Positions 1,421 through 31,075 of a stretch of DNA of 64,000 bases are shown piece by piece. Location: contig CALFNN010000105.1 of assembly GCA_937902925.1 (NCBI GenBank), positions 62,001-126,000 of the forward strand, written 5' to 3'. The notes beneath the pieces were generated by a model. It was not told where the DNA came from. It worked only from the letters and a program-made list of their open reading frames with translations, and made no database searches. Origin of the DNA: an uncultured Opitutaceae bacterium (GTDB lineage Bacteria > Verrucomicrobiota > Verrucomicrobiia > Opitutales > Opitutaceae). Numbering within the stretch: the first letter of the stretch is position 1; every line of letters starts with the position of its first letter. A program made the translations under genes and the position numbers.

Positions 1421-1437
1421 GCGACCGCTTCGTTTTC

Positions 1438-7685: not shown

Positions 7686-7688
7686 CGC

Positions 7689-8879: not shown

Positions 8880-8951
8880 AATGCGCTTTTCCCTTTTATC
8901 GTTCTGCGCCTTGCTCGGCGCGCCGCCGCCGATACTCTCGTTGCCCGCCGC

Positions 8952-10142: not shown

Positions 10143-10678
10143 TCCGCACCCTTCGCGCCTTTTTTCTGCGTTGTCTCCTGCGGGAGAAGATCCTGCTCCT
10201 GGTCTTCGTGCTGATCGCGGTCCTGCTTTGGCTCTCGAGCTTCAGCGCCCGGGCCGGAAGATTCTGGGCCCAGCAACGCGCGACGACGAGTTCCCTCCAC
10301 CAGCAAAATCAACTGCTCGCCCAGCACGATGCGATCGAGGCCGCCGCCCAGAAAGCGGCGGCGCTGCTCGACCCGACGAAGACGCGCAATGGCAACCGGC
10401 TCGTCGCCGAAGTCCAGCAACTCGCCAACGACGCCGGACTGCACAATTTTCAGAGCAACGGTGCCCCGACGACCAAGACCAGCGGTCAGGTCTCGATCCA
10501 CACGCTGGACTTTCAGATCAGCCGCATCACGGCCGCCGACTGGCCGGCCCTCAATAATTTCTATTTGGCGCTCAGCGCCCGCTCACCCTACATCGGGATC
10601 GTGAAGTTCGCCCTGAACTCGAATGGCGTGCAACATACCCTGGCGCTGACGGTCTCCTCGGTCGAAATCGCCCACTAG
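10139..10678 (+). CDS. Type II secretion assembly protein, GspM/PilO-like
   Basis: 179 residues; the ATG overlaps the previous stop by 4 bases (ATGA). Short basic cytoplasmic start, one membrane helix (about 15-35, REKILLLVFVLIAVLLWLSSF), a coiled coil (40-75) and a small periplasmic domain. This is the GspM/PilO layout, and the order L-M matches type II operons. Last gene of the run; 141 bases without a clear terminator separate it from the DUF3570 gene. Confidence 0.75.
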   Translation: MIRTLRAFFLRCLLREKILLLVFVLIAVLLWLSSFSARAGRFWAQQRATTSSLHQQNQLLAQHDAIEAAAQKAAALLDPTKTRNGNRLVAEVQQLANDAGLHNFQSNGAPTTKTSGQVSIHTLDFQISRITAADWPALNNFYLALSARSPYIGIVKFALNSNGVQHTLALTVSSVEIAH

Positions 10679-13969: not shown

Positions 13970-15607
13970 GTGACCCGATTTTCCCTTTTTTTCCACCGCC
14001 TTCACTGGCTCAATGTGCCCGGTGCGATGCTGGTTGCGCTCTTGCAGCGCACTCCGGTCGTGCGGCTCGCGACCACGGCGGAGGAGTTCGTGCTCGCGGC
14101 TCCGGCCGGCACCTTGCTCCGCTCCGCGGTCGGGGCGGTGGCCTCGCTCGGCGCCCTCCATTCGCTCGCAGGTGCGACGACCCTGCAGACGAATGGACAT
14201 CCATCGCCGTTCAACGTGACCGCAGGCACGGCGGTTCCGACCGTGTTCTTCACGGTCACGGGCACCCAAAGCGCGCCGGGTTCCTGGCGCATCGGCGGCA
14301 GCATCCCGCCGGGACTTTCGTTTTCCGGGCGCACCACGCCGGGCACGGTCAATGTCTCGACGCTGCAACTCTCGGGCGCGCCCACGACGGCGAACCAATA
14401 TGCCGTGACCTTGCAGGCGTTCGAGGGCCCCAATCTTTCGCTCACGAGTTCGCCCGTCTACACGTATGTGATTAACGTCGCCGCTGCGACCGCGACCCCG
14501 CCCGCGATTACATCGCCGCCCTCGAATCAAACCGTGAGCGCGGGCGGCGCGGCGGTCTTCGCGGTGGCCGCGACCGGTTCACCAGCGCCCAGCTTTCAGT
14601 GGCAAAGAAATGGCGTGAACCTCGCCGGCCAGTCGGGCACGACGCTGACGCTGTCCGCGGTGCAGCCGTCCGACACCGGACTCTACCAGGTCGTGGCGAC
14701 CAATGCCTCCGGCAGCACGACAAGCGCGTCCGCGTTGCTCGGTCTATCGTCGATGGCGAAGGTGATCGGCGACGGTTCAGTCATTGGCGAGAACATCGTC
14801 CACCCCAATCACAATATCTTCGACCAGGTGCTGCTGACGGGCGTGGCTGAGACCCTCACCGCGGATCCGGGTCAGGTGACGCGGACCTCCTACATCGACC
14901 TGAACGACGATATCGTGCAGGTGGAATTCAGCGGCGCGGGCACGCTCTCGCTCGTGTTGGACGACTCGTCCGGACCGGCGGCGCCGGTGAACTACAATCA
15001 ACCGACGGTGAATTACATGAAAGGTCACGCCGGGATCGTTATCACGGGGGCCGATGACACCACGAATGTGTCCGTCTTCACGGTGGGTCGCGCGACGGCG
15101 TTCGATCCCACCGGGGGCTACAACATCCTCCTGCCGCCCGGCGATGCGAACAATCCCGCCAACAACGGCAGTTCGCTGTTTCAGGGGCACGACACGACCA
15201 ACTACGACGGGATCGCGGGCATCGCGTTCATCGCGATCGCGAGCACCAATGGAAAATTCGGCGGCGTGCGCACGTCCGATGCGACCTACTTTGCGACGCA
15301 GGGGATGACGGGTATCTATGCACCCGGCGTCCAGTTCACGGGGCCCGTGTTCATCGGCGACATCAGTGCTTTTAACACGGCGACGCCCGTCATCCTGCTG
15401 GGCTCGGTGAGCGACGCGCGGATCACCGGTGGCGATCTGTTGCAGGACAACGACCAGCCGGTCCAGGTGAGCGGGATTTCGCAATTGAAGTTTACCGCGG
15501 GGATCGACTCGCAGGGCAACCCTTTGCCGGCACAATCCAACCAGGGCACCTTGCAGCAGAACGGATCCGACGTGACGGCGCAGATCGTGGTCAATCCAGC
15601 GCCTTGA
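13970..15607 (+). CDS. Large secreted Ig-domain protein with unassigned C-terminal domain (paralogue 1)
   Basis: 545 residues from a GTG at 13970. A leader of about 69 residues has two hydrophobic stretches around LLQRTPVVR and ends in a likely signal peptidase site HSLAGA/TTL. Then come a putative-Ig/cadherin-like segment (about 75-175, WRIGGSIPPGLSF...), an immunoglobulin-like domain (about 178-260, FQWQRNGVNLAG... QPSDTGLYQVVATNASG) and a C-terminal domain of about 284 residues (from 262) shared with the genes at 21827 and 23692. No catalytic motif is visible. It is exported and could be a cell-surface or type II secretion client. The function is unknown. Confidence 0.85.
   Translation: MTRFSLFFHRLHWLNVPGAMLVALLQRTPVVRLATTAEEFVLAAPAGTLLRSAVGAVASLGALHSLAGATTLQTNGHPSPFNVTAGTAVPTVFFTVTGTQSAPGSWRIGGSIPPGLSFSGRTTPGTVNVSTLQLSGAPTTANQYAVTLQAFEGPNLSLTSSPVYTYVINVAAATATPPAITSPPSNQTVSAGGAAVFAVAATGSPAPSFQWQRNGVNLAGQSGTTLTLSAVQPSDTGLYQVVATNASGSTTSASALLGLSSMAKVIGDGSVIGENIVHPNHNIFDQVLLTGVAETLTADPGQVTRTSYIDLNDDIVQVEFSGAGTLSLVLDDSSGPAAPVNYNQPTVNYMKGHAGIVITGADDTTNVSVFTVGRATAFDPTGGYNILLPPGDANNPANNGSSLFQGHDTTNYDGIAGIAFIAIASTNGKFGGVRTSDATYFATQGMTGIYAPGVQFTGPVFIGDISAFNTATPVILLGSVSDARITGGDLLQDNDQPVQVSGISQLKFTAGIDSQGNPLPAQSNQGTLQQNGSDVTAQIVVNPAP
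14753..15604 (+). repeat. Copy 1 of the shared C-terminal domain
   Basis: Encodes about 284 residues with the blocks IDLNDDIVQVEFSGAG, SGPAAPVNYNQP, KGHAGIVITGADDTTNVSVF, NNPANNGSS, NGKFGG, MTGIYAPGV and TGGDLLQ. The blocks recur at 22679-23530 and 24877-25722. Confidence 0.9.
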
Positions 15608-15739
15608 CCGCGGCCCGGCCGGACCGCCGGGTTTCCCCGCCGCTCGGCAAGAATGTTGGTGCGAAATACCCCGAGGGAGGACAAGAATCGCGATTACGGG
15701 TCGACGCCCGGGCACGTTGGCCAGCCCGACCCCGATCGA

Positions 15740-16417
15740 ATGCGCATTCTGGTCATCGAAGACGAACGCCAGCTCGCCGGGCACATAACCCGGGCGCTGG
15801 CGCGGCATGCCCATGTGGCGGCAGCCTGCCACGACGGGGCGGAAGGCCTGCAGGCCGTGCTCGCCGATCCCCCCGACCTCGTCGTGCTCGACCTGAACCT
15901 GCCCGGCCTCGACGGACTCGGCGTGTTGGCGCGGCTCCGCCGGGCGGGGAGTCCGGCGCGCGTCCTGATCCTGACGGCGCGCGGCGAGGTGGAGCACCGG
16001 GTGAAGGGTTTGCAGGCGGGGGCCGACGATTATCTGGCCAAGCCGTTTGCCATGGATGAACTCGTCGCCCGCGTGGAAGCGTTGGGGCGGCGGGGGACGG
16101 CCCCCACGGCGGCGGATTTCCTGAAGGTCTCGGATCTCCACATGGACGTGCTGCACCGCCGGGTGACCCGCGCCGGCAGGCCGATCGCGCTTTCGCCCCG
16201 TGAATTCGATGTGTTGCAGGTGCTCATGCAGGAGCCCGGCCGCGCCTTTTCCCGCACGGAATTGTGCGAACGGGTCTGGCAGCGGGATCACGAATACGAC
16301 ACGCGCACCGTCGAAATCTTCATCACCCGCTTGCGAAAAAAAGTGGATTCGGGTTTCGGTGCGGCCCTCATTCAGACCCTCCGCTCCATCGGCTATACCA
16401 TTCGCCCCACCGAGTGA
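15740..16417 (+). CDS. OmpR-family response regulator
   Basis: 225 residues from the ATG at 15740 (MRILVIEDE). Receiver domain (1-115) has the acidic pair Glu-Asp-Glu, phospho-acceptor Asp in VVLDLNLPGLDG (about 51), Thr in ILTARG and Lys in YLAKPFAMDELVARV. The C-terminal winged helix (about 130-222) has LSPREFDVLQVLMQEPGRAFSR and the recognition region TRTVEIFITRLRKKVD. It is a DNA-binding transcription regulator, presumably phosphorylated by the histidine kinase two genes downstream. It closely resembles QseB/TctD-type regulators in layout. The cupredoxin gene follows after 27 bases. Confidence 0.94.
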   Translation: MRILVIEDERQLAGHITRALARHAHVAAACHDGAEGLQAVLADPPDLVVLDLNLPGLDGLGVLARLRRAGSPARVLILTARGEVEHRVKGLQAGADDYLAKPFAMDELVARVEALGRRGTAPTAADFLKVSDLHMDVLHRRVTRAGRPIALSPREFDVLQVLMQEPGRAFSRTELCERVWQRDHEYDTRTVEIFITRLRKKVDSGFGAALIQTLRSIGYTIRPTE

Positions 16418-16444
16418 TGTCGCCGGGACGGCCCCGGACCCCGC

Positions 16445-17092
16445 ATGAATCTTCTCCGCCCCGCCCGTCTCGTTCTCGCCTGGAGTGCGCTGCCCGCCTT
16501 CGTCTTCGCGCAGGCCGCGGTCGAGGGGAGGGTGACGTTGCCCGCCACCCGCGCCGCACCAGTCGTGAACAAGCGCTACGAGATCGTCACCAAGGGCGGG
16601 GTTCTGTCGACGAATCCGCCCCTCGCGGTCGTCTATCTTGAGGGCACGTTTTCCCCGCCACCCGTGCCTCCGCTCGCGCAGGTGGCCCAGAAGGATCTCG
16701 CGTTCATCCCCACGCTCCTGCCCGTGCAGGTCGGCACCCGGGTCGAGTTTCCGAACTTCGACGACACCTACCACAATATTTTCTCGTTCTCGCCCGCAAA
16801 GCGCTTTGATCTCGGCCGCTACCGCTCGGACGAAAAGCCGGTGCCATCGGTTGTCTTCGACGAGGCCGGCCTCGTCACGCTCCGCTGCGACATCCACGAG
16901 CACATGCGGGCGCTCATCCTCGTGCTGCCCACGCCCTATTTCGTCGTGACTGACGCCGACGGGCGCTACCGGCTGGGCGGACTGCCGCCCGGTCGCTACA
17001 CGGTCGCGGCCTGGCTCGATAGCAAGACCACGGCACCTTCCCGGCCGGTCGACTTGCAGAATGGCGTGACCGCCCACGTCGATTTCCCGTGA
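16445..17092 (+). CDS. Secreted cupredoxin-like protein
   Basis: 215 residues with a signal peptide (LVLAWSALPAFVFA/QA). A plastocyanin-like fold spans about 70-160. Likely type 1 copper ligands are His110 (in FDDTYHNIFSF), Cys148, His151 and Met154 (in RCDIHEHMRA). The last 60 residues form a carboxypeptidase-regulatory-like beta sandwich (DADGRYRLGGLPPGRYTVAAWL). Such proteins are often annotated as methylamine-utilization proteins without evidence for that pathway. The gene is placed between a response regulator and its kinase and overlaps the kinase start by 4 bases, so it may be an electron carrier or a copper/redox input to the sensor. Confidence 0.85.
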   Translation: MNLLRPARLVLAWSALPAFVFAQAAVEGRVTLPATRAAPVVNKRYEIVTKGGVLSTNPPLAVVYLEGTFSPPPVPPLAQVAQKDLAFIPTLLPVQVGTRVEFPNFDDTYHNIFSFSPAKRFDLGRYRSDEKPVPSVVFDEAGLVTLRCDIHEHMRALILVLPTPYFVVTDADGRYRLGGLPPGRYTVAAWLDSKTTAPSRPVDLQNGVTAHVDFP

Positions 17093-18813
17093 TCGCCCCG
17101 GGCACATCGCCGCAGTCCCGCGTCGCCGGCTTCCGGACGAAGCTGCTCCTGGCGATGATGCTCGTGGTCTCGGCGGTGACGGCCGCCGGACTCTATTTTG
17201 CCGAGCGCAATCTGGTCGCCGGCGCCGAGCAGGATTTGCAGCGGAGTTTTCAAAGCGAACTCGACGCGCGCCAGCGGGTGGAGGAAGTGCGCCGCGCGGC
17301 GCTCGCCGAACGCTGCCGCGCGCTCGTGCGCAAGCCGCGCATTCAGGGGGCGCTGGAAGACGACGCCCTCGATCTGCTCTACCCGAACGCGGAAAACGAA
17401 CTCAGCGACCTCATGGCGGCGGACGACGACCCGGCCGGCGGTGCGACGACGCCCGCTTTGCACGCCCGGTTCTACCGCTTCCTCGACTCCCGAGGCGCCG
17501 TCATCGCGCCGCCGTCCGAGAATCTGGCGTCCGTCGGGGCGTTGGGCTCCGTTGAAGAAGCCCGGCTGGCGCTGCCGGCGGCGCCGGAGCGCCAGCAGAT
17601 CGGTTACCTGACGCAACGCACGGCGGGCGGCGGGGAAGCCGTTTCCGAGATCATCGCCATGCCAATCATCTCGGATCAAACCCGCGAGGTGATTGCGGCG
17701 CTCGTCCTGGGATTTCGTCCGTTTGAATTTGCCGCGAGCCGCGGCAGCGCCGGCATCGCCAGCGGTCTGTGGTTCGACGGGCGGCTGCATTTCTCGAGCC
17801 CGCCGGCCGACGCCCTCGCGCGCGAGGTGGCCGGCGCGATCGCCGCCCCGGGCGGAGCCGGGATGCCTCGGCGGATCGTGCTCGCCGGGGTGCCGCAGTT
17901 GCTCTTCTGCAAGCTGCTCAATCCCGGCTCGCGATTCGCCCCGGCCTACGAGGTTTGCGTTTATCCGCTGACCGATTTGCGCGCGCGACAGTGGCAACTG
18001 CGCTGGCGGGTCATCGGCACGGGCACGATGCTGCTGCTCGGCGGGTTGCTCGCGAGCCAGGTGCTCTCCCGCCGTCTTTCCGAACCAGTCGAGAAACTCG
18101 CGATCGACTCGGAGCGTTCCGCACGCTTTTCGGCGGACGCCTCCCACCAGCTCAAGACGCCGGTCACCGTGTTGCGCGCCGGACTCGAGGAGCTCTTGAC
18201 TCATGACCGGCTCACCTCGGAGGAGTGCAACGAGATCTCCAGCCTCATTCACCAGACTTACCGCCTGTCGGGAGTCATCGAGGATTTGCTGCTCCTGTCG
18301 CGGATGGACGCCGGCCGGCTGAAGATCGACTTCGCGACGGTCAACCTCACGCAGTTGATCGAGGCGTCGCTGGACGACCTGAGCGCGCTGCCGGGCGAAC
18401 TCGATCTCACCCTCGAAACGGACGTTCCCGTCGCCCTCCAGGTCGCGGGCGAGAAGCGCTACATCGCGCTGATCCTGCAAAACCTCTTGGAAAACGCGCG
18501 GAAATACAACCGGCCCCGCGGGCGCATCCGGATTGCGGCGCACGCGGACGGCGACCGCGTGGTGCTCGCGATCGGCAACACCGGGACGCCGATCCCAGCG
18601 CCGGCACGGGCGCACATTTTCGAGCGTTTTCACCGGGGGGCGATGGGAGAAAACGTGCCCGGCTACGGACTCGGGCTGAACCTCGCGCGCGAGCTCGCGC
18701 GGCTCCACCAGGGCGATTTGCGACTGGCGCGATCGGACGGGAACTGGACCGAATTCGAAGTGAGTTTCCGGCTGGCTCCCGCCCTGGCTGGAAGCACCCG
18801 TTCCTCCGCATGA
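17089..18813 (+). CDS. Membrane sensor histidine kinase
   Basis: 574 residues from a GTG overlapping the cupredoxin stop (GTGA). TM1 (about 18-38), a periplasmic sensor region of about 270 residues with no recognised domain, and TM2 (about 306-326, VIGTGTMLLLGGLLASQVL). Then HisKA with FSADASHQLKTPVTVLRAGL (His353) and HATPase_c with N box LILQNLLENARKYN, IFERFHRG and GYGLGLNLARELA. The layout and the dimerization motif resemble QseC/heavy-metal kinases. It presumably phosphorylates the regulator encoded at 15740. Confidence 0.93.
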   Translation: MIAPGTSPQSRVAGFRTKLLLAMMLVVSAVTAAGLYFAERNLVAGAEQDLQRSFQSELDARQRVEEVRRAALAERCRALVRKPRIQGALEDDALDLLYPNAENELSDLMAADDDPAGGATTPALHARFYRFLDSRGAVIAPPSENLASVGALGSVEEARLALPAAPERQQIGYLTQRTAGGGEAVSEIIAMPIISDQTREVIAALVLGFRPFEFAASRGSAGIASGLWFDGRLHFSSPPADALAREVAGAIAAPGGAGMPRRIVLAGVPQLLFCKLLNPGSRFAPAYEVCVYPLTDLRARQWQLRWRVIGTGTMLLLGGLLASQVLSRRLSEPVEKLAIDSERSARFSADASHQLKTPVTVLRAGLEELLTHDRLTSEECNEISSLIHQTYRLSGVIEDLLLLSRMDAGRLKIDFATVNLTQLIEASLDDLSALPGELDLTLETDVPVALQVAGEKRYIALILQNLLENARKYNRPRGRIRIAAHADGDRVVLAIGNTGTPIPAPARAHIFERFHRGAMGENVPGYGLGLNLARELARLHQGDLRLARSDGNWTEFEVSFRLAPALAGSTRSSA

Positions 18814-20060
18814 AACGCCTCCGGGTTATTTTCGGATGTTACGCCCTGCTGGCGGGCCCGGCCGTCGCGGGTGGCGATTTCCTGGACCGGGTGGACGATT
18901 CCCTGACGACGAGCGCGTTGCACGATGCGGTGAGGCTGCGGCTCAGCGGCACCCTCGACCTCGAAGCTTACCAACTGCGGCAGCCCGCCCCGAGTCTCAT
19001 CTACTCCGACGGCTCCGGTCTCTTCAGCCCGCGGCTCAGCCTTTTTCTCGATGTCCAGATCGGCGCCCACGTTTATGTCTACGCGCAGGCGCGGGCGGAT
19101 CGCGGGTTCGACCCGGGCGACGGTGGATTGCGAGGCCGGCTGGACGAGTATGCTCTGCGCTACACGCCCGTCGACAACGGCCGGTTGAATTTCCAGGTTG
19201 GAAAATTCGCGACGATCGTCGGCAACTGGATGCCCCGGCACGGTTCTTGGGACAATCCGTTCATCACGGCGCCGCTGCCGTATTCGAATCTCACGGGGAT
19301 CTGGGATGCGATGGCGGCGCGAACGACCGACCAGCTTTTCCTCTGGGCGAGTGTGCGACCGCGACCGGCGCAAGGCGGCGAGTATCTGGACAAGGCGCTG
19401 AGCGTGCCGATCATTTGGGGCCCGAGCTATGCGACCGGCGCCGCCGTGTTCGGCGAGATCGGCCGATTCGACTACGCGGTTGAAATGAAGAATGTCGCCC
19501 TCGCGTCGCGTCCCGCAGTCTGGGATCTCGATGGGAGCCGCTGGGACCGGCCGGCGTGGAATGGCCGCCTCGGCTATCGCCCCAATCCGATGTGGAGTTT
19601 CGGGGTTTCCGCGAGCACCGGATCTTACCTGCGGCCATTGGCCCAGCGCACGCTGGCGCCGGGCCACGGCCTCGACGACTACCGGGAGTTCGTGTTTGGC
19701 CAGGACATCGGATTCGCCTGGCATCATACCCAGTTCTGGGCGGAGGTCTACGAGGCGCGTTTCACGATTCCCACCGTGGGCGATGCCCGCACGGTGGCCT
19801 ATTATCTCGAGGGAAAGCAGAAACTCACACCGCAATTGTTCATCGCACTGCGGTGGAACGAGCAGTTTTTTTCGACGTTCCGCGACCGCACCGGGACGGC
19901 CGTGCGATGGGGCCGGGATGTGTGGCGCATCGATATCGGGCCGGGCTATCGCTTCACCCCGCACACGCAGCTCAAGGTGCAATACAGCTTGCAGCACGAG
20001 GACGCCGACGCCCGCGAACTCGGGCACATGCTGGCCGGACAATTCACGGTGCGGTTCTAG
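18810..20060 (+). CDS. Porin-like outer-membrane protein
   Basis: 416 residues; the ATG overlaps the kinase stop (ATGA). A signal peptide (VIFGCYALLAGPAVAGG) is followed by alternating amphipathic strands typical of barrels (LSLFLDVQIGAHVYVYAQAR, LDEYALRYTP, GRLNFQVGKFATIVGNW) and the protein ends in Phe-Thr-Val-Arg-Phe, a strong outer-membrane signal. No substrate can be named. It is translationally coupled to a two-component system and cupredoxin, so it is likely a regulated or functionally linked pore. A palindromic terminator follows. Confidence 0.82.
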   Translation: MKRLRVIFGCYALLAGPAVAGGDFLDRVDDSLTTSALHDAVRLRLSGTLDLEAYQLRQPAPSLIYSDGSGLFSPRLSLFLDVQIGAHVYVYAQARADRGFDPGDGGLRGRLDEYALRYTPVDNGRLNFQVGKFATIVGNWMPRHGSWDNPFITAPLPYSNLTGIWDAMAARTTDQLFLWASVRPRPAQGGEYLDKALSVPIIWGPSYATGAAVFGEIGRFDYAVEMKNVALASRPAVWDLDGSRWDRPAWNGRLGYRPNPMWSFGVSASTGSYLRPLAQRTLAPGHGLDDYREFVFGQDIGFAWHHTQFWAEVYEARFTIPTVGDARTVAYYLEGKQKLTPQLFIALRWNEQFFSTFRDRTGTAVRWGRDVWRIDIGPGYRFTPHTQLKVQYSLQHEDADARELGHMLAGQFTVRF

Positions 20061-20099
20061 GGTGGCGGCACTGACCCTGGAACCCGGGCATCCGCCCGG

Positions 20100-20128
20100 A
20101 AAGTGTCACGTATTACGTGACACTTTTT
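20100..20128 (+). terminator. Palindromic terminator after the porin gene (or operator)
   Basis: Stem of 11 bp (20100-20110 with 20116-20126), loop TATTA, T-run 20124-20128. The core GTGTCACG/CGTGACAC is symmetric, so a dimeric regulator site upstream of the gene at 20217 is possible as well. Confidence 0.65.
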
Positions 20129-20216
20129 CCATGGCGGCTGACGCGCCGGGCTGGAGCGGCGCCAAGGGTAACAGTCCTGTTACCGTCACCCGCTTTCGCC
20201 GCCCGCTGCGGGGATT

Positions 20217-21830
20217 ATGTTTGGCGGAATCCCGATGGCGTTCATGCATCATCACCGGCAGGAAAATCCGGTCCTCTTCCGGCGTTTTGCGCTGGCGGGA
20301 CTGTGCCTGACGGTCGGTTTCGTGGCGCCGGCCTCGCGCAGCCAGGGGATCGTGCCGGCCGCGATGCCGGATCCAGGGGTTTCCGGTTACCGGTTCCCCG
20401 AGAGCGAGGCGACCCTGACGGGCTGGATCACCGAGGCAGACCGAGGTGACGCCGGGGCGCCAGCGGCGAGGGCGAAGATTTTTCTCCATGGCTGGGGCCT
20501 GTGGACGGCCCTGACGGCGGAAACACCGCAGTTCTTCGCCGGCCAGCGACTGCGGGTGTTTGAGACTTGGCTGACACCGGAAGACCTGACCAGCCAACCG
20601 AACCTGCGAACGGTGGGCGCGCGGTCGCGGCAGCAGCGGCGGCGCGCTCCACTTCGCACGCTCGACCAGCTCGGAGCGAGGGCGCGCGCGGCCGGCCCTT
20701 CCACCCGGACGGCCGACGACGGGGCCGCGGGCCGCGTCGTCGGCTTCGTGAAGTTCGATCCGGCGGCGGCGGATCACATTTTGCAGCAGCGGTTGCTGGA
20801 GACCGGGGCGTTGGATTCGTTGCTCCAGGGCGGAGCCCAGGGCGTCCCGCCGTTTCCCGCCTCCGCGCTCGCGGTCAAATCGATTTTTCAAGTCATCCCC
20901 GCCGCCGATCTGGTCGATGGGCGCTATTACGCCTTGAAGGCGTGGTCCGGTCCGCCCGCCGTGGTGCAGGCCTGGGGGCCGGCGCAGTGGCCGGGCTGCG
21001 TGTGGATCGACTTGTTCGATGGCGGCAGCGGGCAGGGGGCGATTGACGAAGCGCCGCAGAGCGACGGCAGCACGCGCGCGGCGGAGACGACCTACCCGCT
21101 GTTGAATTTCATCCACTACCGGCTGTCGGCCGACGACGCGGCCGCGGTCAACGCGGACAAGCCGGCGACGGGCGCGAGCGCCGGCGACTACGCGATCCTC
21201 GTCGGGATGCACGTGGCGGGCCGCGAGATCGCACGCTGGACCTGGCAGACGTTCTGGTGGACGCCGGCGCCGGACGATCCGCCGGCGCCCAGCTCAGCGG
21301 CGATCGCGAGCCAGCGTCCGTTGCAGCTGCGGGGTCCCGCGCGCCACTACGCCATGGCGCTCGCCTACACGATGCTGTCACCCGACCAGCCCTACATCGG
21401 CGGCGACAATGCCGGTGCGGCCGTCTACGCGTATAACCCGTGGGTCGAGGCGCGCTTCGCTCCCGCCGACCTGCCGGATTCGCAGCCCGGCCTCGACCCG
21501 GCCGGCCGGCCCGCAGGCAACAACTACGGCGTCGAGACGAATTGCATGAGCTGCCACGCGCGTGCGACCTACAACCCGAACGCGCGCAGCACCGCCCCCC
21601 GGTTTGCCGGGGCCCGCTACGTGGATCTGATCGATCCGCAATTCGTCGGCACGCTGCAGGTGGACTTCCTGTGGTCCCTTCCGCGCCGCGCGGTCAGCCG
21701 GGCGACGGAGCCGGCGGCGTCGTTTCCGCTCGGTCCCGGGGCGGACGTTTCCCTGACCCCGCCGATGCCGATGCCCCTTCCAATCCCCGACTTCAATCAC
21801 CCGAGAAATCCGAACTCATTCGAACCATGA
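20217..21830 (+). CDS. Secreted protein with one c-type heme motif
   Basis: 537 residues from the ATG at 20217 (20235 and 20244 also possible). Signal peptide around RRFALAGLCLTVGFVAPASRSQG. Most of the chain has no family I recognise; features include KIFLHGWGLWTALTAE, FETWLTP, FVKFDPAAADHI and a single CxxCH at 443-447 (NCMSCHARATYNPN). Similar layouts occur in long hypothetical proteins of environmental bacteria that carry a lone heme site in the last quarter. It is probably periplasmic and redox-active. The stop codon overlaps the start of the Ig-domain paralogue 2 by 4 bases, implying coordinated synthesis. Confidence 0.75.
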   Translation: MFGGIPMAFMHHHRQENPVLFRRFALAGLCLTVGFVAPASRSQGIVPAAMPDPGVSGYRFPESEATLTGWITEADRGDAGAPAARAKIFLHGWGLWTALTAETPQFFAGQRLRVFETWLTPEDLTSQPNLRTVGARSRQQRRRAPLRTLDQLGARARAAGPSTRTADDGAAGRVVGFVKFDPAAADHILQQRLLETGALDSLLQGGAQGVPPFPASALAVKSIFQVIPAADLVDGRYYALKAWSGPPAVVQAWGPAQWPGCVWIDLFDGGSGQGAIDEAPQSDGSTRAAETTYPLLNFIHYRLSADDAAAVNADKPATGASAGDYAILVGMHVAGREIARWTWQTFWWTPAPDDPPAPSSAAIASQRPLQLRGPARHYAMALAYTMLSPDQPYIGGDNAGAAVYAYNPWVEARFAPADLPDSQPGLDPAGRPAGNNYGVETNCMSCHARATYNPNARSTAPRFAGARYVDLIDPQFVGTLQVDFLWSLPRRAVSRATEPAASFPLGPGADVSLTPPMPMPLPIPDFNHPRNPNSFEP

Positions 21831-23533
21831 ACATCATCGTCAAACCCACCATCCAGCGCGCCTGGCTGCGAGCCCAACTGCCGGCGGCGCTCTTGATCGC
21901 GTTCTTGCAACGCACGCCTGTCGTCCGCCTGTTTCAGGTGGCCGATGAGTTCGTCAGCGCCTCGCCGGCGGGCGCGCTCCTGCGTTCCACCGCCGCGGTG
22001 GCCGCCTCGCTTGGCACGCTGCATTCGCTCGCGGGGGCGACCACCCTGCTCGCGTCGAAAACCAGTCCGGCTGCCCTCACGGCCGGAACGCAGATCACCC
22101 AGATCGCGTTCACCGTCACCGACACGATCAACATCGCGTCGTGGAAAATCGGGGGCGCGCTGCCGCCCGGCCTGAGCCTGTCGGCCCTGGAGGGAGGCGG
22201 CAGCCTGACGGGCCCCGGGATGCTGGACGCGACCACGCCGGGAGTGGATGACGGCTATGGTGGCATGAGTGGTGGGATCGCCTCGACGACGCCGTTCCTC
22301 GCGGGCACGCCGACGCAGCCGGGACTTTACACGTTCACGCTGCAGGCCTTCGAGTTTGCGGGCCTCGCCGGACTGGCCTCGAACACGTTTAGCTACAGCA
22401 TCAATGTGACCGCAGGAGGCGGCGGAGGATCGGCCCCGACCGTGACGACCCAGCCGACCAGCCGGGCGGTGGCGGCGGGCGCCAGCACCACGTTGAGTGT
22501 GGCGGCGACCGGCAGCCCGACGATTCAGTGGCAGCGCAACGGCGGTGATTTGACCGGTGCGACGAGCGCGACCCTTTCCCTCGCGAATGTGCAGCCGTCC
22601 GATGCGGGCCTCTACGCCGCGGTATTGACGAGTGGCGCCACGACCACGAGCGACGCGGCGATCGTGGGGGTGGCGACGACGAGCAAGGTGATTGGCACCG
22701 GGACGGAGCTCGCGGCCGACATCGTGTATCCGACTGGAGCCAAATATGACCAAGTGCTGCCTTCGGGCGGGGCGCTGGCGGTCACGGCGGACGCGGGCCA
22801 AGTCACCCGATCCTCCTTCATCGACCTGAACGATGACATCGTGCAGGTGGAGTTCAGCGGTGCGGGCACCCTCTCCCTCGTGTTGGACAGCACCTCCGGC
22901 CCAGCCGCGCCGGTGAACTACAACCAGCCGAGCGTCGCCTACATAAAAGGCCACGCCGGCATCGTGATCACGGGGGCGGACGAAACCACCAACGTGTCCG
23001 TGTTCAGCGTCGGCCGGGTAAACGCGAACGATCCGACGGGCGGTTTCAATTTCCTGAACCCGATCAGTGCGACGAACAATCCCGCGAATAATGGCAGTTC
23101 GCTGTTCGTCGGCCATGCGACGACAGCTTATGACGGCGTCGCGGATATCGGCTTTATCGCGATCTCGAGTGCGAATGGGAAATTCGGCGGCCTGCGCGCC
23201 TCGGATGCGAGCTGCTTCGCGACGCAAGGCATGACCGGCATCTACGCCCCCGGGGTGACGTTCAATGGACCGGTGTTTATCGGCGACATCAACGCTTCCG
23301 ATGCGGCGACGCCGGTGTTCGTCATCGGATCGTCGCCCGACACGCGGATCACTGGTGGCGACCTGTTGCAGACGAACGGAAAACCGGTGCAAGTCAATGG
23401 GCTGACGCAACTGAAGTTTACCGCGGGCGGAACTTCGAATAACGTGGCGCTGCCGGCCCAGAACAACCGGGCTGTCCTTCAGCAGAACGGCACGGATGTG
23501 ACCTCCCAAGTCGTGGTCAATCCGAGTCCCTGA
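21827..23533 (+). CDS. Large secreted Ig-domain protein with unassigned C-terminal domain (paralogue 2)
   Basis: 568 residues from the ATG at 21827, overlapping the heme-protein stop (ATGA). The leader of about 71 residues is nearly identical in pattern to paralogue 1 (FLQRTPVVR, EFVSASPAGALLRS, SLGTLHSLAGA/TTL). Next come a putative-Ig region (WKIGGALPPGLSLSALEGGG), an Ig-like domain (IQWQRNGGDLTGATSATLSL, QPSDAGLYAAVL) and the shared C-terminal domain from about residue 285. It is exported and non-enzymatic as far as can be seen. Coupling to a CxxCH protein sets it apart from paralogue 1. Confidence 0.85.
   Translation: MNIIVKPTIQRAWLRAQLPAALLIAFLQRTPVVRLFQVADEFVSASPAGALLRSTAAVAASLGTLHSLAGATTLLASKTSPAALTAGTQITQIAFTVTDTINIASWKIGGALPPGLSLSALEGGGSLTGPGMLDATTPGVDDGYGGMSGGIASTTPFLAGTPTQPGLYTFTLQAFEFAGLAGLASNTFSYSINVTAGGGGGSAPTVTTQPTSRAVAAGASTTLSVAATGSPTIQWQRNGGDLTGATSATLSLANVQPSDAGLYAAVLTSGATTTSDAAIVGVATTSKVIGTGTELAADIVYPTGAKYDQVLPSGGALAVTADAGQVTRSSFIDLNDDIVQVEFSGAGTLSLVLDSTSGPAAPVNYNQPSVAYIKGHAGIVITGADETTNVSVFSVGRVNANDPTGGFNFLNPISATNNPANNGSSLFVGHATTAYDGVADIGFIAISSANGKFGGLRASDASCFATQGMTGIYAPGVTFNGPVFIGDINASDAATPVFVIGSSPDTRITGGDLLQTNGKPVQVNGLTQLKFTAGGTSNNVALPAQNNRAVLQQNGTDVTSQVVVNPSP
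22679..23530 (+). repeat. Copy 2 of the shared C-terminal domain
   Basis: Same ordered blocks as at 14753-15604 (IDLNDDIVQVEFSGAG, SGPAAPVNYNQP, KGHAGIVITGADETTNVSVF, NNPANNGSS, MTGIYAPGV, TGGDLLQ). DNA similarity is high as well, indicating fairly recent duplication. Confidence 0.9.
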
Positions 23534-23691
23534 ACTGGGGTTCGCGTCAAAGCTGCCGCTCCGATAAGGAGCTTCCCCCGGGTGCCGCACCGGCTTTTTC
23601 GCCGCATGCGGCGTCCGGTATCGAAGGACCGAGAGTTCGCGGGGAACAATCGGATTGGCGGCGCGTCAAGGGTCGTCCAACCTTGAACTGC

Positions 23692-25725
23692 ATGTCTTTT
23701 GCCAACCGACTTCTTCCTGTTCTCATTCTGGTCACCGCGATCTCGACGCGGGCGCAATCCACGGTGCCGACCGTGACGCAACAGCTCCCGGCGCAGTCGC
23801 TGGTGGCGGGGGGCGCCTCGGTGAGCATCGATTTGCGCAATTACTTCAACGTGCCAGGGGTGACCGGCCAAGTGGCGCAATTCGACACGGTGCTGGGGAA
23901 ATTCAACGTGGAGCTGCTCGCGAGCGCGGCGCCACAGACGGTGGATAATTTTGCGGCGTATGTGAACGCCGGCTCCTACACCAATACGGTGATCCATCGG
24001 TCGGTCGCCCTCAACGGCACCACGAATCGTATCGTGCAGGGGGGCGGTTATGACACCGGCTTCAACGCCATCGGCCGCGGATCGCCGATCCCCCTTGAAT
24101 ACAATCTGCCCAACATTCGCGGCACTCTCGCGATGGCTCGCACCAGCGATCCGAACAGCGCCACCAGCGAGTGGTTTTTCAACGTCGACGACAACACCGA
24201 CGTGCTGGGCACGAGCAACGGTGGAGGCTATGCGGTGTTCGGTCGCGTGCTTGGCACCGGCATGACGGTGGTGGACGCGATCTCCGCCGTTCCGTCTTCA
24301 TATAGCATCGGGTCGTTGACCAACGTCCCGCTCCAGAACATGCAATCCGGACAAACAACCTACACGGTCGACAACGAGATCGTAGTCAAATCGGTCATCG
24401 GCGCGCAGGTTTATCCCACGATCGGCTATACCGGGTCCGTTTTGAACTTTTCGGGTAACTTTACCACGGGCGGAGCGGTGGTCGGCTCGGTATTGGGTTC
24501 GAAGCTGGTGCTGACGCCGATTGCCGGCGGTTCCACCAGTCTGGCCGTCACCGCCACCGATACGAACGACAACACGGCTTCGTCGACGTTTGCCATCACC
24601 GTCGCGGCGTCCCCGGCCTTTACCACCCAGCCCGCTTCGCAGTCTGTCGTCGCCGGTCAGCCGGTCAGCTTTACCGCCGGAGTCACCGCCGGCACCACGC
24701 CGATTTTCCAATGGCAGCTCAGTGGGAACAATATCGGCGGAATTTCCAATCCGACCTCGGCGACCACGCTGACCGTCAATAACGCGCAGCCGAATTATGC
24801 CGGGCTGTATGTCGCGACCGCGACCAACACGGGAGTCACCGGTGCGAGCACGCCCGCGATTTTCGGGGTCTCCACGACCAGCGAAGTGATAGGCAGCGGC
24901 TCCGTGCTGCAGCCGACCCACATTCAACATCCGAATGGCAACTACTACGACCAGGTGCTGCTGACCGGGGAGGCCGAGACGATTACGACGCCCGGCTACG
25001 TCGTGCGGACCTCCTTCATCGATCCGAATGACGATATTGTGCAGGTCGAATTTGGCGGCCATGGCAACCTGTCGCTGGTGCTCGATGGCTTTTCGGGTCC
25101 GGCCACGCCCGTGAACTACAATCAATCCTCGGTGACTTATATGAAAGGGCGCGCGGGCATCGTGATCACGGGCGCGGACGAAACGACCAACGTGTCGGTC
25201 TTCACCGTCGGCCGGGCCACCGCCTACGATCCGACCGGCGCCTACAACATCCTGCTCGCTCCCAATACCACGACCAACAACCCCGCGAACAACGGCAACT
25301 CGATCTTCGTCGGGCACACCTCGACGACCTACGATGGCATGGCGGACATCGCGTTCATCGCCATTTCCAGCTCCAACGGAAAATTCGGCGGCGTGCGTGC
25401 CTCCAACACCCGTTTCGGGGCCGCGAAGGGCTACACGGGAATCTACGCCCCGGGCGTGGCATTCACGGGACCGGTCTACGTGGGCAACATCGTCGCATCC
25501 GATGCGGCGATCCCGGTGCTGTTGATCGGGTCCTCGTCCGACGTGCGCGTGACCGGCGGTGATCTGCTCCAGGCGAACAACCAGCCGATCAAGGTCGCCG
25601 GCATCACCCAGTTGAAGTTCACCGCCGGCGTGAACTCGGGCGGGACGGCGCTGCCCGAGATCTTCAACCAGGCGCTGCTGCTCCAGAACAACGTCAACGT
25701 CACCGGTCAGATTGTTTCCTACTGA
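23692..25725 (+). CDS. Secreted cyclophilin-Ig fusion with unassigned C-terminal domain (paralogue 3)
   Basis: 677 residues from the ATG at 23692 (TTG at 23683 is less likely). A short normal signal peptide (LLPVLILVTAISTRA/QS) replaces the long leader of the other paralogues. About residues 55-245 form a cyclophilin-type peptidyl-prolyl isomerase domain (FDTVLGKFNVELLASAAPQT, VIHRSV, GTLAMARTSDPNSATSEWFF, YAVFGRVL). It continues with a cadherin-like stretch, an Ig-like domain (about 305-395) and the shared C-terminal domain (from about 396). The active-site Arg (HRS), Gln-like and Phe positions look roughly kept. Probably an extracytoplasmic folding factor linked to this protein family. Confidence 0.86.
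   Translation: MSFANRLLPVLILVTAISTRAQSTVPTVTQQLPAQSLVAGGASVSIDLRNYFNVPGVTGQVAQFDTVLGKFNVELLASAAPQTVDNFAAYVNAGSYTNTVIHRSVALNGTTNRIVQGGGYDTGFNAIGRGSPIPLEYNLPNIRGTLAMARTSDPNSATSEWFFNVDDNTDVLGTSNGGGYAVFGRVLGTGMTVVDAISAVPSSYSIGSLTNVPLQNMQSGQTTYTVDNEIVVKSVIGAQVYPTIGYTGSVLNFSGNFTTGGAVVGSVLGSKLVLTPIAGGSTSLAVTATDTNDNTASSTFAITVAASPAFTTQPASQSVVAGQPVSFTAGVTAGTTPIFQWQLSGNNIGGISNPTSATTLTVNNAQPNYAGLYVATATNTGVTGASTPAIFGVSTTSEVIGSGSVLQPTHIQHPNGNYYDQVLLTGEAETITTPGYVVRTSFIDPNDDIVQVEFGGHGNLSLVLDGFSGPATPVNYNQSSVTYMKGRAGIVITGADETTNVSVFTVGRATAYDPTGAYNILLAPNTTTNNPANNGNSIFVGHTSTTYDGMADIAFIAISSSNGKFGGVRASNTRFGAAKGYTGIYAPGVAFTGPVYVGNIVASDAAIPVLLIGSSSDVRVTGGDLLQANNQPIKVAGITQLKFTAGVNSGGTALPEIFNQALLLQNNVNVTGQIVSY
24877..25722 (+). 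repeat. Copy 3 of the shared C-terminal domain
   Basis: Same order of blocks as copies 1 and 2, more divergent (IDPNDDIVQVEFGGHG, SGPATPVNYNQS, KGRAGIVITGADETTNVSVF, NNPANNGNS, YTGIYAPGV, TGGDLLQ). Confidence 0.88.
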
Positions 25726-25758: not shown

Positions 25759-27027
25759 TCATCCGCCCAATTTCAGGCTGCTGCTGGTCGCGAAGACCGC
25801 CTGCACGATGCCGACGGCGATGAAGCCGACGAAGATGAACACGATCATCAGGACGCCGCTCGCGATCACCTTGGTGAACATGTTCAGCTGGCCGGAGATC
25901 AGCTTCTGGTAGGCCTGCGCGATCTGCTTCAGGCTGGGGACGACATTGCCGGTGTTCTCGCCGACGGCCAGACGGTCGAGCACGAGGTCGGGGAAGCAGC
26001 CGGTGCGGGTCAGCGCGGACGACAGCGCCTCGCCTTCCAGGACGCGGCCGGTGGCGGTGTTGAACGCGGCGCGGTGCACGCGGTTGGCGATCTGGCGCTC
26101 GGTCATCCGCAGGGCCTCGGCGGCGGTGATGCCGTTTTCCAGGAGCACGGAAAGGGTCTGGCTGAAGGCGAGCACGGTCTGCGCGACGGCGAACGGCCCG
26201 ATCAGCGGCAGGGTGAGCATCCACGCGTCGGTTGTCCGGCGCCCCGCCTCCGTCGCCCGCCAGCGCCAGAAGAATACCAGTCCGATTGCGATGCCGATGA
26301 TGATGAACAGCCCGTAATGAAGCGCGAAGGTCGAGAGGCCGATCAGAAGCTTGGTTGACAATGGAATCTTGCCGCCGAGCGAGGTCAGCAGGCCCTGGAT
26401 CTTCGGCAGCAGGAAAAACAGGAAAAACATGATCACGCCAAAGGCGACGAACACCATGAAGATCGGGTAGGCGAGGGCGGTGAGGAGCTGCCGGCGCAAT
26501 TCCCGTTGCTCGATGAGATGGGCGATGATGCGGCCAACGGTGTCGTTGAGCGAGCCGGTGGCTTCGCCCGCCTGGATGAGGTTGGTGATCGAGGGGTCGA
26601 AGATCTGCGGAAAATCGGCCATCGCCCGCGACAGCGGCGCGCCCTCGCTGATGCGCTCCCACAGCCCGATGCAGAGCGAGCGCAGCCGCGGCTCCTTGAT
26701 GCGGATCGAGAGGAGGCGGACCGCTTCACCCGCGGAAAGCCCGCTGGCCATGAGATCGTAGAGGGCCTCGAGAAACGGCAGGCGTTCCGCGGCGCCCGGG
26801 AGCAGCGCGGCGGCGCGGCGGGCGGCGCGGGCCGCCGCGCGATCGGGCTTGGTCGCGGGGGCGGCGCCCGCGGCCTTGGGCGAGGATCCCGCCAGTTCGG
26901 CCACCGACGACGCCTGCAGGCCGCGGGCCGAGAGGAGGCGGAGCGCGTCCTTGCGACTCGGGGCGTCGAGGCTGGCGTTGACCGGTTTGCCGGAGCGGTC
27001 GAGCGCAGTGTAGGCGAAACGCGGCAT
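25759..27027 (-). CDS. gspF: Type II secretion inner-membrane platform protein GspF
   Basis: 422 residues. Two T2SSF domains: the first with LMASGLSAGEAVRLLS, IQAGEATGSLNDTVGRI and the membrane helix FMVFVAFGVIMFFLFFLLP, the second with LLENGITAAEALRMTERQI and GENTGNVVPSLKQIAQ, then a final membrane helix (VLMIVFIFVGFIAVGIVQAVF). It is the polytopic core that couples GspE ATP hydrolysis to pseudopilus growth. The N-terminal 40 residues (FAYTALDRSGKPVNASLDAP) are the usual GspF start. It lies 4 bases after gspE in a minus-strand run gspD-gspE-gspF. Confidence 0.95.
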   Translation of the reverse strand: MPRFAYTALDRSGKPVNASLDAPSRKDALRLLSARGLQASSVAELAGSSPKAAGAAPATKPDRAAARAARRAAALLPGAAERLPFLEALYDLMASGLSAGEAVRLLSIRIKEPRLRSLCIGLWERISEGAPLSRAMADFPQIFDPSITNLIQAGEATGSLNDTVGRIIAHLIEQRELRRQLLTALAYPIFMVFVAFGVIMFFLFFLLPKIQGLLTSLGGKIPLSTKLLIGLSTFALHYGLFIIIGIAIGLVFFWRWRATEAGRRTTDAWMLTLPLIGPFAVAQTVLAFSQTLSVLLENGITAAEALRMTERQIANRVHRAAFNTATGRVLEGEALSSALTRTGCFPDLVLDRLAVGENTGNVVPSLKQIAQAYQKLISGQLNMFTKVIASGVLMIVFIFVGFIAVGIVQAVFATSSSLKLGG

Positions 27028-27031
27028 CGGC

Positions 27032-28756
<1,725 letters not shown>

Positions 28757-28778
28757 GACGGCACGGCGCGCGACGCGC

Positions 28779-30878
28779 TCACTTGACGAAACGATCGATC
28801 ACGCCGGAATTGGGCATCTTCGACGGATCCTTGAGATAGGAATGAATATCGTCCTTCTCGGAGAGTTCGTCGATTTTCTGGGTGGCGTCGGCCGTGCCCT
28901 GCAATGCGGCAATGATGTGGGGCTTGACGAACAAGAGGAGTTCGCGGCGATCCGTCTCGTTGTTGCGGCCCCCGATCAAATTACTGAGGATCGGAATCTC
29001 GTAGAAGAAGCCGACCTTGCTGCGGTTGGTGGAGAGCTTGTTGCTCTGCAGGCCGCCGAGGACGATCATCTGGCCGTCCTGGCAACTGACGGTCACGTTC
29101 GCCTCCCGGTGGCCCACGATGGGAACGGGACCGTTGTCGATCGTGACGTTCCCGAGGATGTCATCGACGATCTGGTCGATCTTCAACTCGATGCCGCCGT
29201 CGGCGCCGATCAACGGCGTGACCTTCACCTCGACGCCCACATTGATGTATTGGGTGTTGGACTGCGTGGTGACGCCCGTCGTGGAGGCGCTGTTGGGCGT
29301 GCTGGTGACGCCGGCGGCGTAGGGTTGCTTCTGCTGCACCTGGAAATCGCCCTCCTTGCCATGCTGCGTGATGATGGTGTTCGCCTGGAGCACCTTCACC
29401 CGGCTGTTGCCACCATTGCTCTGCAGCGCGGCGGCAAACGAGAGCGGGTTGACCACGCCGGTCGTGACATTCCAGCCGCCCAGCGTGGCGCCAAAGTTGG
29501 TGATGTGCGTGCCGCGGCCATTGTCTCCGCCCGCGCCGGCGGGCGTGTCGGTGCCGACGGTCAGGTTCAGCGCGGAGAGGCCGCTGACATCGGTGTCGGT
29601 CAGCGTGACCTCGGCGATGACCACCTGGATGCTGACCTGCGGCAGCAGGACATCCAGTTTATCGACGAGCTGCTTGATCAGGCGAATGTCGTCGCCGGTG
29701 CCCGAGACGACGATCGAATTGCTCCGCTCGTCGCTGGCGATGGTCATGAAGATGCTGAATTCATTCGTGGAACCGCCATTGCCGTCGCCATTGCCGGCGT
29801 TGCTGGCGGAAACGACCGCGGGCGCGACCGGGCCGGGCGCGGCGCCGGGAGGGGCTCCGGGAATAACCGGCGCCACCGGCTGCGTGATGTTTTGTGGCAC
29901 GCGCGGGGCGTTCTGGCTGTTGGCGCGCTGGGCCGCGTTCTGGCCCTGGATGATGCGGGTGAGGGTGTCGGCAACCTTGGCCGCCTCGGCGTGTTTCAGG
30001 AAAATGACTTCGTTGCGCGTCTGGGGATCGGCGGGGGTGTCGAGCTTGGCGACGAGCTCGTCGAAGATCGGATACTGGCGCGGGTCGGCGAAGACGATGA
30101 TCTGGTTGGTCCGGTCATCGGAGCTGAAGGTGGTGTTGATGCCGATCTGCTGCCGGAGCTGGCCGCTCAACATCGTGTTCAGCTTGTTGACGATCGTGGT
30201 GGCGGAGGCGTTGTGCAGCGGGTAGAACTTCGGCGTCAGCCCGGAGATGTTGGGCCGGTCGACCGACTTGAGGAGCGATTCGATGCGCTGCAGGTTGCTG
30301 ACGCTGTCAGTGACCATGACCGAGTTGGCGCTCTGAAACATCACGACGCCCTGGATATTCGGATTCAAGATGCCCTGCTGGATGAGCGGGGCAAATTCCT
30401 GAACGCGGAGGAAATCGAGCTGGAAGATCTTCGTGGCGATTTTCCCGCTGGGCGGCAGATCGAGCGTCGAGCCGGTGATCATCTCCGGCGCCGTGGTCCG
30501 GGTGAGCTGCAGTTGGGAGACGATGAGGGAACGGTCGCCCTGCTCCGTCACGCCGATGAGGTTTTGCGCGAGGACCGTCTCGATCGCGAGGATGGCCTCG
30601 GTTTTCGAGATGGGCTTGGTGATCTTGAGATTGTAGGTCGCGGTCTGGAGCTGGGCGGGACGCAGCACGAAACGACCGGTGAGCATCTCGAGCGTGCTGA
30701 GGACGGTGTCGAGGTCGGCATCGGGCAATTTGAGCTCATTGACCATCTCGACATCGGTGGCCGGGCTGGCGCCCGCGGGGCGGGCGGCGGGCGGGGGGGC
30801 GGCGGGCTGGGCAAAGGCGGCGACTCCGGCGGCAACCAGAAGAGCGGCTAGGCACGGACGGACAAAACGCGGGGTCAT
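28779..30878 (-). CDS. gspD: Type II secretion secretin GspD
   Basis: 699 residues from the ATG at 30878; the longer open frame upstream lacks a signal peptide. Signal peptide (CLAALLVAAGVAAFA/QP), a Pro/Ala linker, N0 domain (about 40-125), N1-N3 repeats (KIFQLDFLRVQEFAPLI, YPLHNASATTIVNKL, VIFLKHAEAAKVADTL) with a disordered Asn/Pro/Gly insert in N3 (about 340-400), then the secretin pore (VQQKQPYAAG..., VPIVGHREANVTVSCQDG, GFFYEIPILSNLIGG, RRELLLFVKPHII). It forms the outer-membrane channel. No pilotin-binding S-domain is evident. First gene of the minus-strand block; aroC is divergent. Confidence 0.95.
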   Translation of the reverse strand: MTPRFVRPCLAALLVAAGVAAFAQPAAPPPAARPAGASPATDVEMVNELKLPDADLDTVLSTLEMLTGRFVLRPAQLQTATYNLKITKPISKTEAILAIETVLAQNLIGVTEQGDRSLIVSQLQLTRTTAPEMITGSTLDLPPSGKIATKIFQLDFLRVQEFAPLIQQGILNPNIQGVVMFQSANSVMVTDSVSNLQRIESLLKSVDRPNISGLTPKFYPLHNASATTIVNKLNTMLSGQLRQQIGINTTFSSDDRTNQIIVFADPRQYPIFDELVAKLDTPADPQTRNEVIFLKHAEAAKVADTLTRIIQGQNAAQRANSQNAPRVPQNITQPVAPVIPGAPPGAAPGPVAPAVVSASNAGNGDGNGGSTNEFSIFMTIASDERSNSIVVSGTGDDIRLIKQLVDKLDVLLPQVSIQVVIAEVTLTDTDVSGLSALNLTVGTDTPAGAGGDNGRGTHITNFGATLGGWNVTTGVVNPLSFAAALQSNGGNSRVKVLQANTIITQHGKEGDFQVQQKQPYAAGVTSTPNSASTTGVTTQSNTQYINVGVEVKVTPLIGADGGIELKIDQIVDDILGNVTIDNGPVPIVGHREANVTVSCQDGQMIVLGGLQSNKLSTNRSKVGFFYEIPILSNLIGGRNNETDRRELLLFVKPHIIAALQGTADATQKIDELSEKDDIHSYLKDPSKMPNSGVIDRFVK

Positions 30879-31075
30879 GCGAAAAAGGGATGGTGGATGG
30901 CGACGGGCGCGCGAAAGGCGGATGAGAGGTGAAAGTGACCGGGTTGTAAACGGTCTTATGTGTGGCCAAATGAGACGGCTTTGGCCGGGAAATGTTGCCG
31001 GAGATGCGTCCGCGCGGCGGCGGCGGATTTGCCGCTTGCCGCTCCCCGGGGCGCCGCCAACGCTCCCGCCCCGCG
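30879..31075. promoter_or_regulatory. Divergent promoter region between gspD and aroC
   Basis: 197 bases without a gene. On the minus strand TTTACA, a 17-base spacer and TCTCAT (about 30950-30922) could be a weak sigma-70 promoter for gspD. Nothing convincing was found for aroC. No operator or riboswitch was seen. Confidence 0.35.

Follow-up and report, generated by a model that had tools for sequence, protein, structure and literature searches.

A multi-copy C-terminal domain on diverse proteins of Opitutaceae, found beside type II secretion genes

The locus and its common C-terminal domain

The window analysed here is a stretch of 64,000 nucleotides from an uncultured Opitutaceae bacterium (contig CALFNN010000105.1; genome G000, 6.0 Mb in 105 contigs), in which a split cluster of type II secretion (gsp) genes encloses three genes, P0001, P0002 and P0003, whose products have in common a C-terminal region hereafter named CTD-A. 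A preliminary description of this DNA had proposed such a region on the basis of a list of conserved blocks, and the region is real: all the blocks are present, in the listed order, in the translations 13970-15604, 21827-23530 and 23692-25722. Its length, given then as 284 residues, measures 283, 283 and 281 residues in the three proteins. The layout of the genes is as follows (CTD-B is a second type of tail, presented below).

5281..10678, + strand: type II secretion cluster, first half, GspG and then genes at the H, I, J, K, L and M places (Pfam and synteny in other genera)
13970..15607, + strand: P0001, 545 residues; leader with two hydrophobic stretches, a Pfam-negative stretch, Ig_3 and CTD-A
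13970..14185, + strand: leader of P0001, approximately residues 1-72, kept in CTD-A-tailed and CTD-B-tailed proteins (boundary by eye)
14498..14704, + strand: Ig_3 domain of P0001 (Pfam E 1.4e-15)
14756..15604, + strand: CTD-A of P0001, 283 residues (sequence comparison; AlphaFold2 pLDDT 95.9)
21827..23533, + strand: P0002, 568 residues; leader, Ig_3 and CTD-A
22436..22615, + strand: Ig_3 domain of P0002 (Pfam E 7.7e-9)
22682..23530, + strand: CTD-A of P0002, 283 residues (sequence comparison)
23692..25725, + strand: P0003, 677 residues; signal peptide, cyclophilin, Ig_3 and CTD-A
23878..24327, + strand: cyclophilin-type peptidyl-prolyl isomerase domain of P0003 (PF00160, E 1.1e-29)
24613..24828, + strand: Ig_3 domain of P0003 (Pfam E 5.2e-9)
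24880..25722, + strand: CTD-A of P0003, 281 residues (sequence comparison)
25759..31082, - strand: type II secretion cluster, second half, GspF, GspE and GspD, the secretin (T2SSF 5.2e-42, T2SSE 1.1e-133, Secretin 2.1e-33)

The three window copies of CTD-A are 67-70% identical (70% for P0002 and 67% for P0003 with respect to the copy of P0001), and each is preceded by an Ig-like domain recognised by Pfam. The N-terminal modules differ, as had been noted earlier: P0001 and P0002 combine Ig_3 with the same unusual leader containing two hydrophobic stretches (its shape judged by eye), whereas P0003 combines it with a cyclophilin domain. The earlier labelling of all three proteins as exported needs some qualification: P0003 is the only one with a classical signal peptide in our crude test, and P0001 and P0002 start with the two-stretch leader.

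Profile searches in Pfam, NCBIfam, PHROGs and PDB sequences returned no described family over CTD-A, in agreement with its initial presentation as an unassigned domain. In P0001-P0003 the region is matched by neither Pfam nor NCBIfam at E values up to 1, nor by PHROGs, while the comparison with PDB sequences gave two rows only, with chance-like E values of 0.14 and 0.27; no paper describing the domain was found in the open-access literature, as judged by titles and the beginning of abstracts. The structure prediction suggested in the preliminary description produced a confident all-beta model, consisting of strands and a few short helical turns (AlphaFold2 on P0001 with 56 aligned sequences; pTM 0.93). 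Foldseek comparison of this model with the PDB and viral models retrieved nothing at E 0.001, and structural alignment to 114 chains gave 10 with Z of at least 2. The best of these were RbmB (9ozl; Z 5.2, rmsd 4.3, 167 residues aligned), HxuA (4rm6; Z 4.3) and HpmA (3fy3; Z 3.9), which we take to be right-handed beta-helix proteins. The alignment with such beta-helices is weak (153-167 residues, Z 3.9-5.2, 4-9% identity) and does not establish kinship; the likeness of the predicted fold may be merely a common arrangement. Ten polar positions are invariant in the 56 sequences (Q24, R43, S45, D48, D52, Q55, E57, Y80, Q82 and Y87), a pattern that suggests a putative binding site.

Copies, carrier proteins and a second tail

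The search of the whole genome of the window yielded 53 segments matching CTD-A, resolved into at least 35 copies; 16 places, including the query's own, are full-length matches with E values of 8.5e-96 or lower, and similarity by chance is thus excluded. A related complete genome (G003, 5,957,605 bases) contains at least 40 CTD-A domains in 39 open reading frames (ORFs); a count of copies per genome in Verrucomicrobiota had been suggested earlier as a check. The block NNPANNG, one of those listed earlier, holds for the window genes but is confined to an insertion of approximately 24 residues that characterises a long subclass (16 of 35 copies in G000 and 8 of 40 in G003, assigned by length, with the insertion aligned in a selection of copies only). 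In the domain tree the copies cluster by genome, with 17 changes for G000 versus a shuffled mean of 27.2 and none of 500 shuffles as low.

Matches to CTD-A were found in 6 of 57 relatives and in 5 of 387 genomes of an even sample of the phylum, all five belonging to the same family (f1, taken as Opitutaceae from its named relatives). One degenerate pattern, capable of detecting close relatives only, was scanned over 84,980 species genomes and retrieved 75 loci, all titled Opitutaceae, Opitutus, Opitutae or Verrucomicrobia/-iia/-ota, some of the records being the same genomes as G022 and G049. In the genomes searched, CTD-A is limited to Opitutaceae and near relatives.

Within its carrier proteins, CTD-A mostly reaches the C-terminus: no more than three residues separate it from the stop codon in 28 of 35 G000 ORFs and in 33 of 39 ORFs of G003. 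An Ig-like domain usually precedes it, and a profile of the 100 residues before the three window copies matches directly upstream in 29 of the 34 testable G000 copies (70 of 79 overall). Pfam analysis of all 35 proteins of G000 recognised enzymes among the carriers, namely two S8 subtilases, GH43, GH28, a pectinesterase, a matrixin, a kumamolisin activation domain and the cyclophilin, together with YHYH proteins, NHL, PQQ-like and DUF5122 propellers, and Ig/Big arrays of up to 3138 residues. Five carriers have no Pfam match at E 1e-4 (L032, L034, L035, L064 and L069), the nearest NCBIfam entry for L064 being the xylanase XynC, far under its cut-off. Signal-peptide-like starts are present in 24 of 35 carriers in G000 and 26 of 39 in G003, as compared with 29 of 398 control ORFs that are mostly non-coding frames (crude test). 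Further internal copies of CTD-A occur in L029 and L109.

Other layouts were observed as well. CTD-A is near the N-terminus of proteins of approximately 900-1240 residues in L023, L026, L090 (a fragment), L124, L143, L146 and L153, the combination of Ig and DUF1800 having Pfam support in two of these (L023 and L026) and being recognised by layout in the other five. Divergent forms of CTD-A follow an LExLExRQLLA-like motif, in reversal of the usual order, in L035, L044, L083, L092, L175, L184 and L186; we provisionally take this motif to be the one called LEPR-XLL.

A search with the leader in 14 genomes found matches in five of them. In G033, G012 and G007 the leader and Ig portion is followed by another C-terminus, CTD-B, which is a tandem repeat with an LVEVY-like end (example genes are L212:1486-3309, L210:1357-3114 and L209:1438-3063). 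Pfam recognises nothing in the CTD-B of three proteins, and one protein carrying it scores narrowly over the cut-off of the NCBIfam DVUA0089 family (30.2 vs 29 bits). It occurs in 28 of 57 relatives, with at least 20 matches in 17 of them (counts of matches rather than copies, and partly lower bounds); G000 has one weak match and G003 fourteen. The profiles of CTD-A and CTD-B do not align (hhalign probability 0.3%), and hhalign gave no sign of a distant homology between them; one bacterial family thus uses, as C-terminal tails, two domains without detectable kinship. The model of CTD-B, computed with six sequences (pLDDT 83.5), is matched best by Foldseek to the collagen-binding tandem domain 5iku (E 3.5e-7), albeit with a whole-length TM-score of 0.3 and rmsd of 17.6; its Z values with collagen-binding and PPC chains (6.2-7.0) are close to those with unrelated chains (6.4-6.6). 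PPC and collagen-binding domains (ColG s3a-s3b, 5iku) resemble CTD-B. CTD-A, for its part, does not align with CTD-B, and the PPC profile finds nothing in P0001-P0003 even at E values up to 1.

In sister genera, cyclophilin and leader proteins that are homologous to each other end in CTD-A or CTD-B interchangeably. The cyclophilin-type set contains 24 proteins, from 18 of 20 genome places (G038 and one of G056 being left out) plus six from metagenome-assembled genomes (MAGs), after removal of a truncated duplicate and a short stand-alone cyclophilin. Nine have CTD-A, 12 have CTD-B and three have neither, one of the three ending at a contig end. Tail type requires six changes on the cyclophilin tree by parsimony, and a single clade of A-tailed proteins is rejected with p-AU of 5.6e-10 for the 24 rows and 6e-108 for 20 rows, the latter tree still including L173, a duplicate of the long-branch G049 row. 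Shuffled tail labels are as good in 172-174 of 500 cases, and therefore the tail hardly follows the cyclophilin tree. The leader family, from which two rows were removed (L207 being truncated and L183 having a broken frame), has 15 A tails and five B tails, with three changes and a marginal p-AU of 0.04. At the MAG locus L152, the leader gene encodes tail A and the cyclophilin gene after it tail B, and no ORF with both tails was present among the tail-bearing ORFs examined. (A broader replacement of PEP-CTERM, CTD-A and CTD-B by one another across the 37 family genomes was weak, with Spearman -0.18 and p 0.28, while the comparison of genomes having any A or B with those having none gave a Mann-Whitney p of 0.02, uncorrected for kinship; neither is used here as evidence.)

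A recurring gene order was seen around the leader genes. In the window, a cupredoxin-like gene (label by eye) and a porin-like, Pfam-negative gene at 16445-20057 precede a gene for a leader protein with CTD-A, and the same order is found in six loci of the pattern scan (L129, L134, L152, L158, L162 and L165). This recurrence may indicate that the leader protein is functionally tied to the neighbouring outer-membrane protein.

Association with type II secretion genes

The vicinity of type II secretion genes, already pointed out in the preliminary description, is borne out in the window and recurs in other genera. On one side of the three CTD-A genes lie gspG to gspM, where T2SSG matches at E 7.9e-26, the first four genes have N_methyl, the matches to GspH, T2SSK_1st and T2SSM_b all fall just short of the Pfam cut-off, and the L-like gene has no Pfam match; on the other side lie gspF, gspE and gspD. 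P0003 is convergent with gspF, only 33 bases separating its stop codon from the end of gspF. Scans for promoters and terminators here remained at chance level.

We inspected the region on the tail side of gspF at 41 loci, drawn from every family genome in which gspF was matched (35 genomes, G036 contributing two loci) and from five of 12 other relatives having a match. In 8 of the 35 family genomes, gspF faces a convergent tail-bearing gene at a distance of no more than 1.5 kb, the tail being CTD-A in G000 and G003 and CTD-B in G006, G007, G020, G024, G025 and G030; these convergent genes include the cyclophilin in G000, G006, G007, G020 and G025. In seven genomes (G004, G009, G015, G016, G026, G027 and G036), gspM is instead on the tail side of gspF at a distance of 0.02-3.7 kb, with no tail detected in between. 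Total tail matches are 0-7 in these seven genomes versus 37-86 in the eight (Mann-Whitney p 0.001, for groups chosen after seeing the data and uncorrected for kinship). Of the remaining 20 genomes, one (G032) carries a CTD-B gene 1.5 kb from gspF in the other orientation, and no tail gene was seen beside gspF in 19 (G017 and G029 offering less than 350 bases to examine). Five of the 75 loci of the pattern scan contain gspE or gspF (L119, L122, L134, L152 and L181), and in L134, L152 and L181 a tail gene is convergent with gspE/gspF within 0.8 kb. GspD is present in 12 of 13 genomes tested, with tails or without, and the tails are consequently an addition to the type II system rather than a requirement for it.

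Possible function, known systems and neighbouring genes

The presence, position and exchange of the tails, their gene order and the CTD-A model are direct observations, from which we lean towards considering CTD-A a folded, all-beta, C-terminal module for targeting or retention. A common function in delivery or retention is indicated by the unrelated exported carriers, the placement at the C-terminus, the exchange with CTD-B and the residence at the gsp locus. Carrier proteins would cross the inner membrane by export and then leave the cell, most likely via the type II machinery whose genes flank three carriers here; CTD-A would retain them at the cell surface or within the extracellular matrix, or else mark them for export, presumably through a partner or receptor. 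The Ig-like domain may serve as a spacer ahead of CTD-A, fusion to which would give any exported protein the same fate, while sister genera would use the unrelated CTD-B on the same kinds of protein. Surface attachment, assembly or secretion signal were the roles initially envisaged for the domain: the recurring gsp neighbourhood and the interchangeable tail are consistent with a module of this sort, but the gsp genes of CTD-A-free genomes and the internal or N-terminal copies weigh against it, and the three options would look alike in sequence.

Several observations weigh against this targeting or retention role. At least 25 (to more than 680) residues follow CTD-A in 6 of 35 ORFs of G000 and 3 of 39 of G003, including L023 and L026 of G000, in which Pfam places CHRD and DUF1800 C-terminal to the domain. 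It is on the N-terminal side, starting at residues 31-106 with at least 828 residues after it, in nine loci of the pattern scan (L168-L172, L174, L175, L185 and L186), and directly follows the LExLExRQLLA-like motif near the N-terminus of eight distinct ORFs. In a more diverse alignment of 25 rows, invariance among the ten polar positions is limited to R43 and D48, with Q24, D52, E57, Y80, Q82 and Y87 kept in at least 90% of the rows. The six tail changes in the cyclophilin tree rest on weakly supported branches, the starred branches alone forcing one or two. Moreover, no tail gene was seen next to gspF, over 5.4-5.7 kb, in the CTD-B-rich genomes G013, G014, G021, G028 and G033, and some genomes that lack both tails nevertheless have the type II cluster (for example G001, G002, G004 and G005).

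A possible, though clearly less probable, alternative is that CTD-A is a substrate- or matrix-binding module keeping enzymes on extracellular polymers and playing no part in export or in attachment to the producer cell. Several carriers degrade polymers, such a module would tolerate the internal and N-terminal positions that are observed, and the interchangeable CTD-B finds its best structural match in a collagen-binding domain, with additional alignments to collagen-binding and PPC chains, even if the low global TM-score and the comparable Z values of unrelated chains reduce the value of this match. The cyclophilin, the NHL propellers and the giant Ig-like arrays, however, have no obvious polymer to bind, and the strongly C-terminal position of CTD-A and the recurrence of tail genes at the type II locus also speak against this alternative.

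We consider it improbable that CTD-A is a strict, cleaved C-terminal signal for secretion or sorting, similar to type IX or PEP-CTERM tails and served by a dedicated translocon or sortase, although its copies in a genome are numerous, sit on unrelated exported proteins and mostly occupy the extreme C-terminus, and its distribution inside one family is patchy. Because internal and N-terminal copies exist, the domain is folded and there is no membrane anchor, a module binding to the surface, the matrix or the secretion machinery fits better than a cleaved signal. As in the type IX system (PMC4804311 and PMC8754138), one folded beta-rich C-terminal domain is found on diverse exported proteins; yet CTD-A is about four times as long as the 72-position TIGR04183 profile, is sometimes internal and neighbours a type II pathway. 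A type IX tail was rejected also by direct search, since TIGR04183 is over its cut-off in none of 8 genomes, with no match in G000 and one sub-threshold match in G004, and the C-termini of P0001-P0003 have no NCBIfam match. The tails of the PEP-CTERM/exosortase and GlyGly-CTERM/rhombosortase systems likewise are multi-copy C-terminal regions on unrelated exported proteins, with alternative tails on homologues (PMC3237569). These tails have approximately 22-24 residues with a motif, a transmembrane helix and a basic cluster, whereas CTD-A, at about 250-285 residues, is a soluble domain, and direct reading of the C-termini of P0001-P0003 reveals no hydrophobic helix and no basic cluster. G000 has also four exosortase genes and five PEP-CTERM tails; exosortase as the sole partner of CTD-A is unsupported, given that PF09721 is present in 47 of 57 relatives regardless of CTD-A. 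The parallel with GlyGly-CTERM is more than formal, for PMC3237569 reports that GlyGly-CTERM species generally have type II secretion, in addition to alternative tails on homologues.

Least likely of all would be a passive cap or mobile spacer that spread by duplication and recombination without a common function, as the clustering of same-genome copies on the domain tree might suggest, in view of the ten polar positions invariant in 56 sequences (only two in the more diverse set) and of the tail, A or B, kept by 21 of 24 cyclophilin-type proteins.

Extending the targeting or retention role, one may speculate, with considerable doubt, that CTD-A and CTD-B are unrelated, swappable folded tags defining one cargo class of a verrucomicrobial type II secretion system, the cyclophilin and leader proteins of the gsp locus being resident cargo or folding helpers. 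We know of no common sequence signal for type II secretion; if the tails did define a cargo class, they would constitute a modular, transplantable signal for type II export or display, and a first common one. Multi-copy C-terminal regions led earlier to exosortase and rhombosortase, and here two such regions of unrelated sequence, with dozens of matches per genome, are exchanged on homologues and, through gene order, linked to type II secretion in a group that has been little studied. Should the tails direct export or display, the choice of type II cargo would become approachable by fusion experiments and dozens of unknown proteins per genome would receive a first annotation.

Other genes of the window deserve a brief mention. 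Between P0001 and P0002, a 537-residue protein with a CxxCH motif but negative in Pfam (20217-21827) may be an exported protein of cytochrome-like type. At 764-3678, ahead of the gsp cluster, the translations look by eye like a protein for polysaccharide export and a chain-length kinase of the Wzc type. Finally, DUF3570, ApbE, thioredoxin-like and DUF4266 genes are consecutive at 10682-13836 (domains by Pfam), a row that corresponds to the flavinylation-associated cluster reported in PMC8238504.

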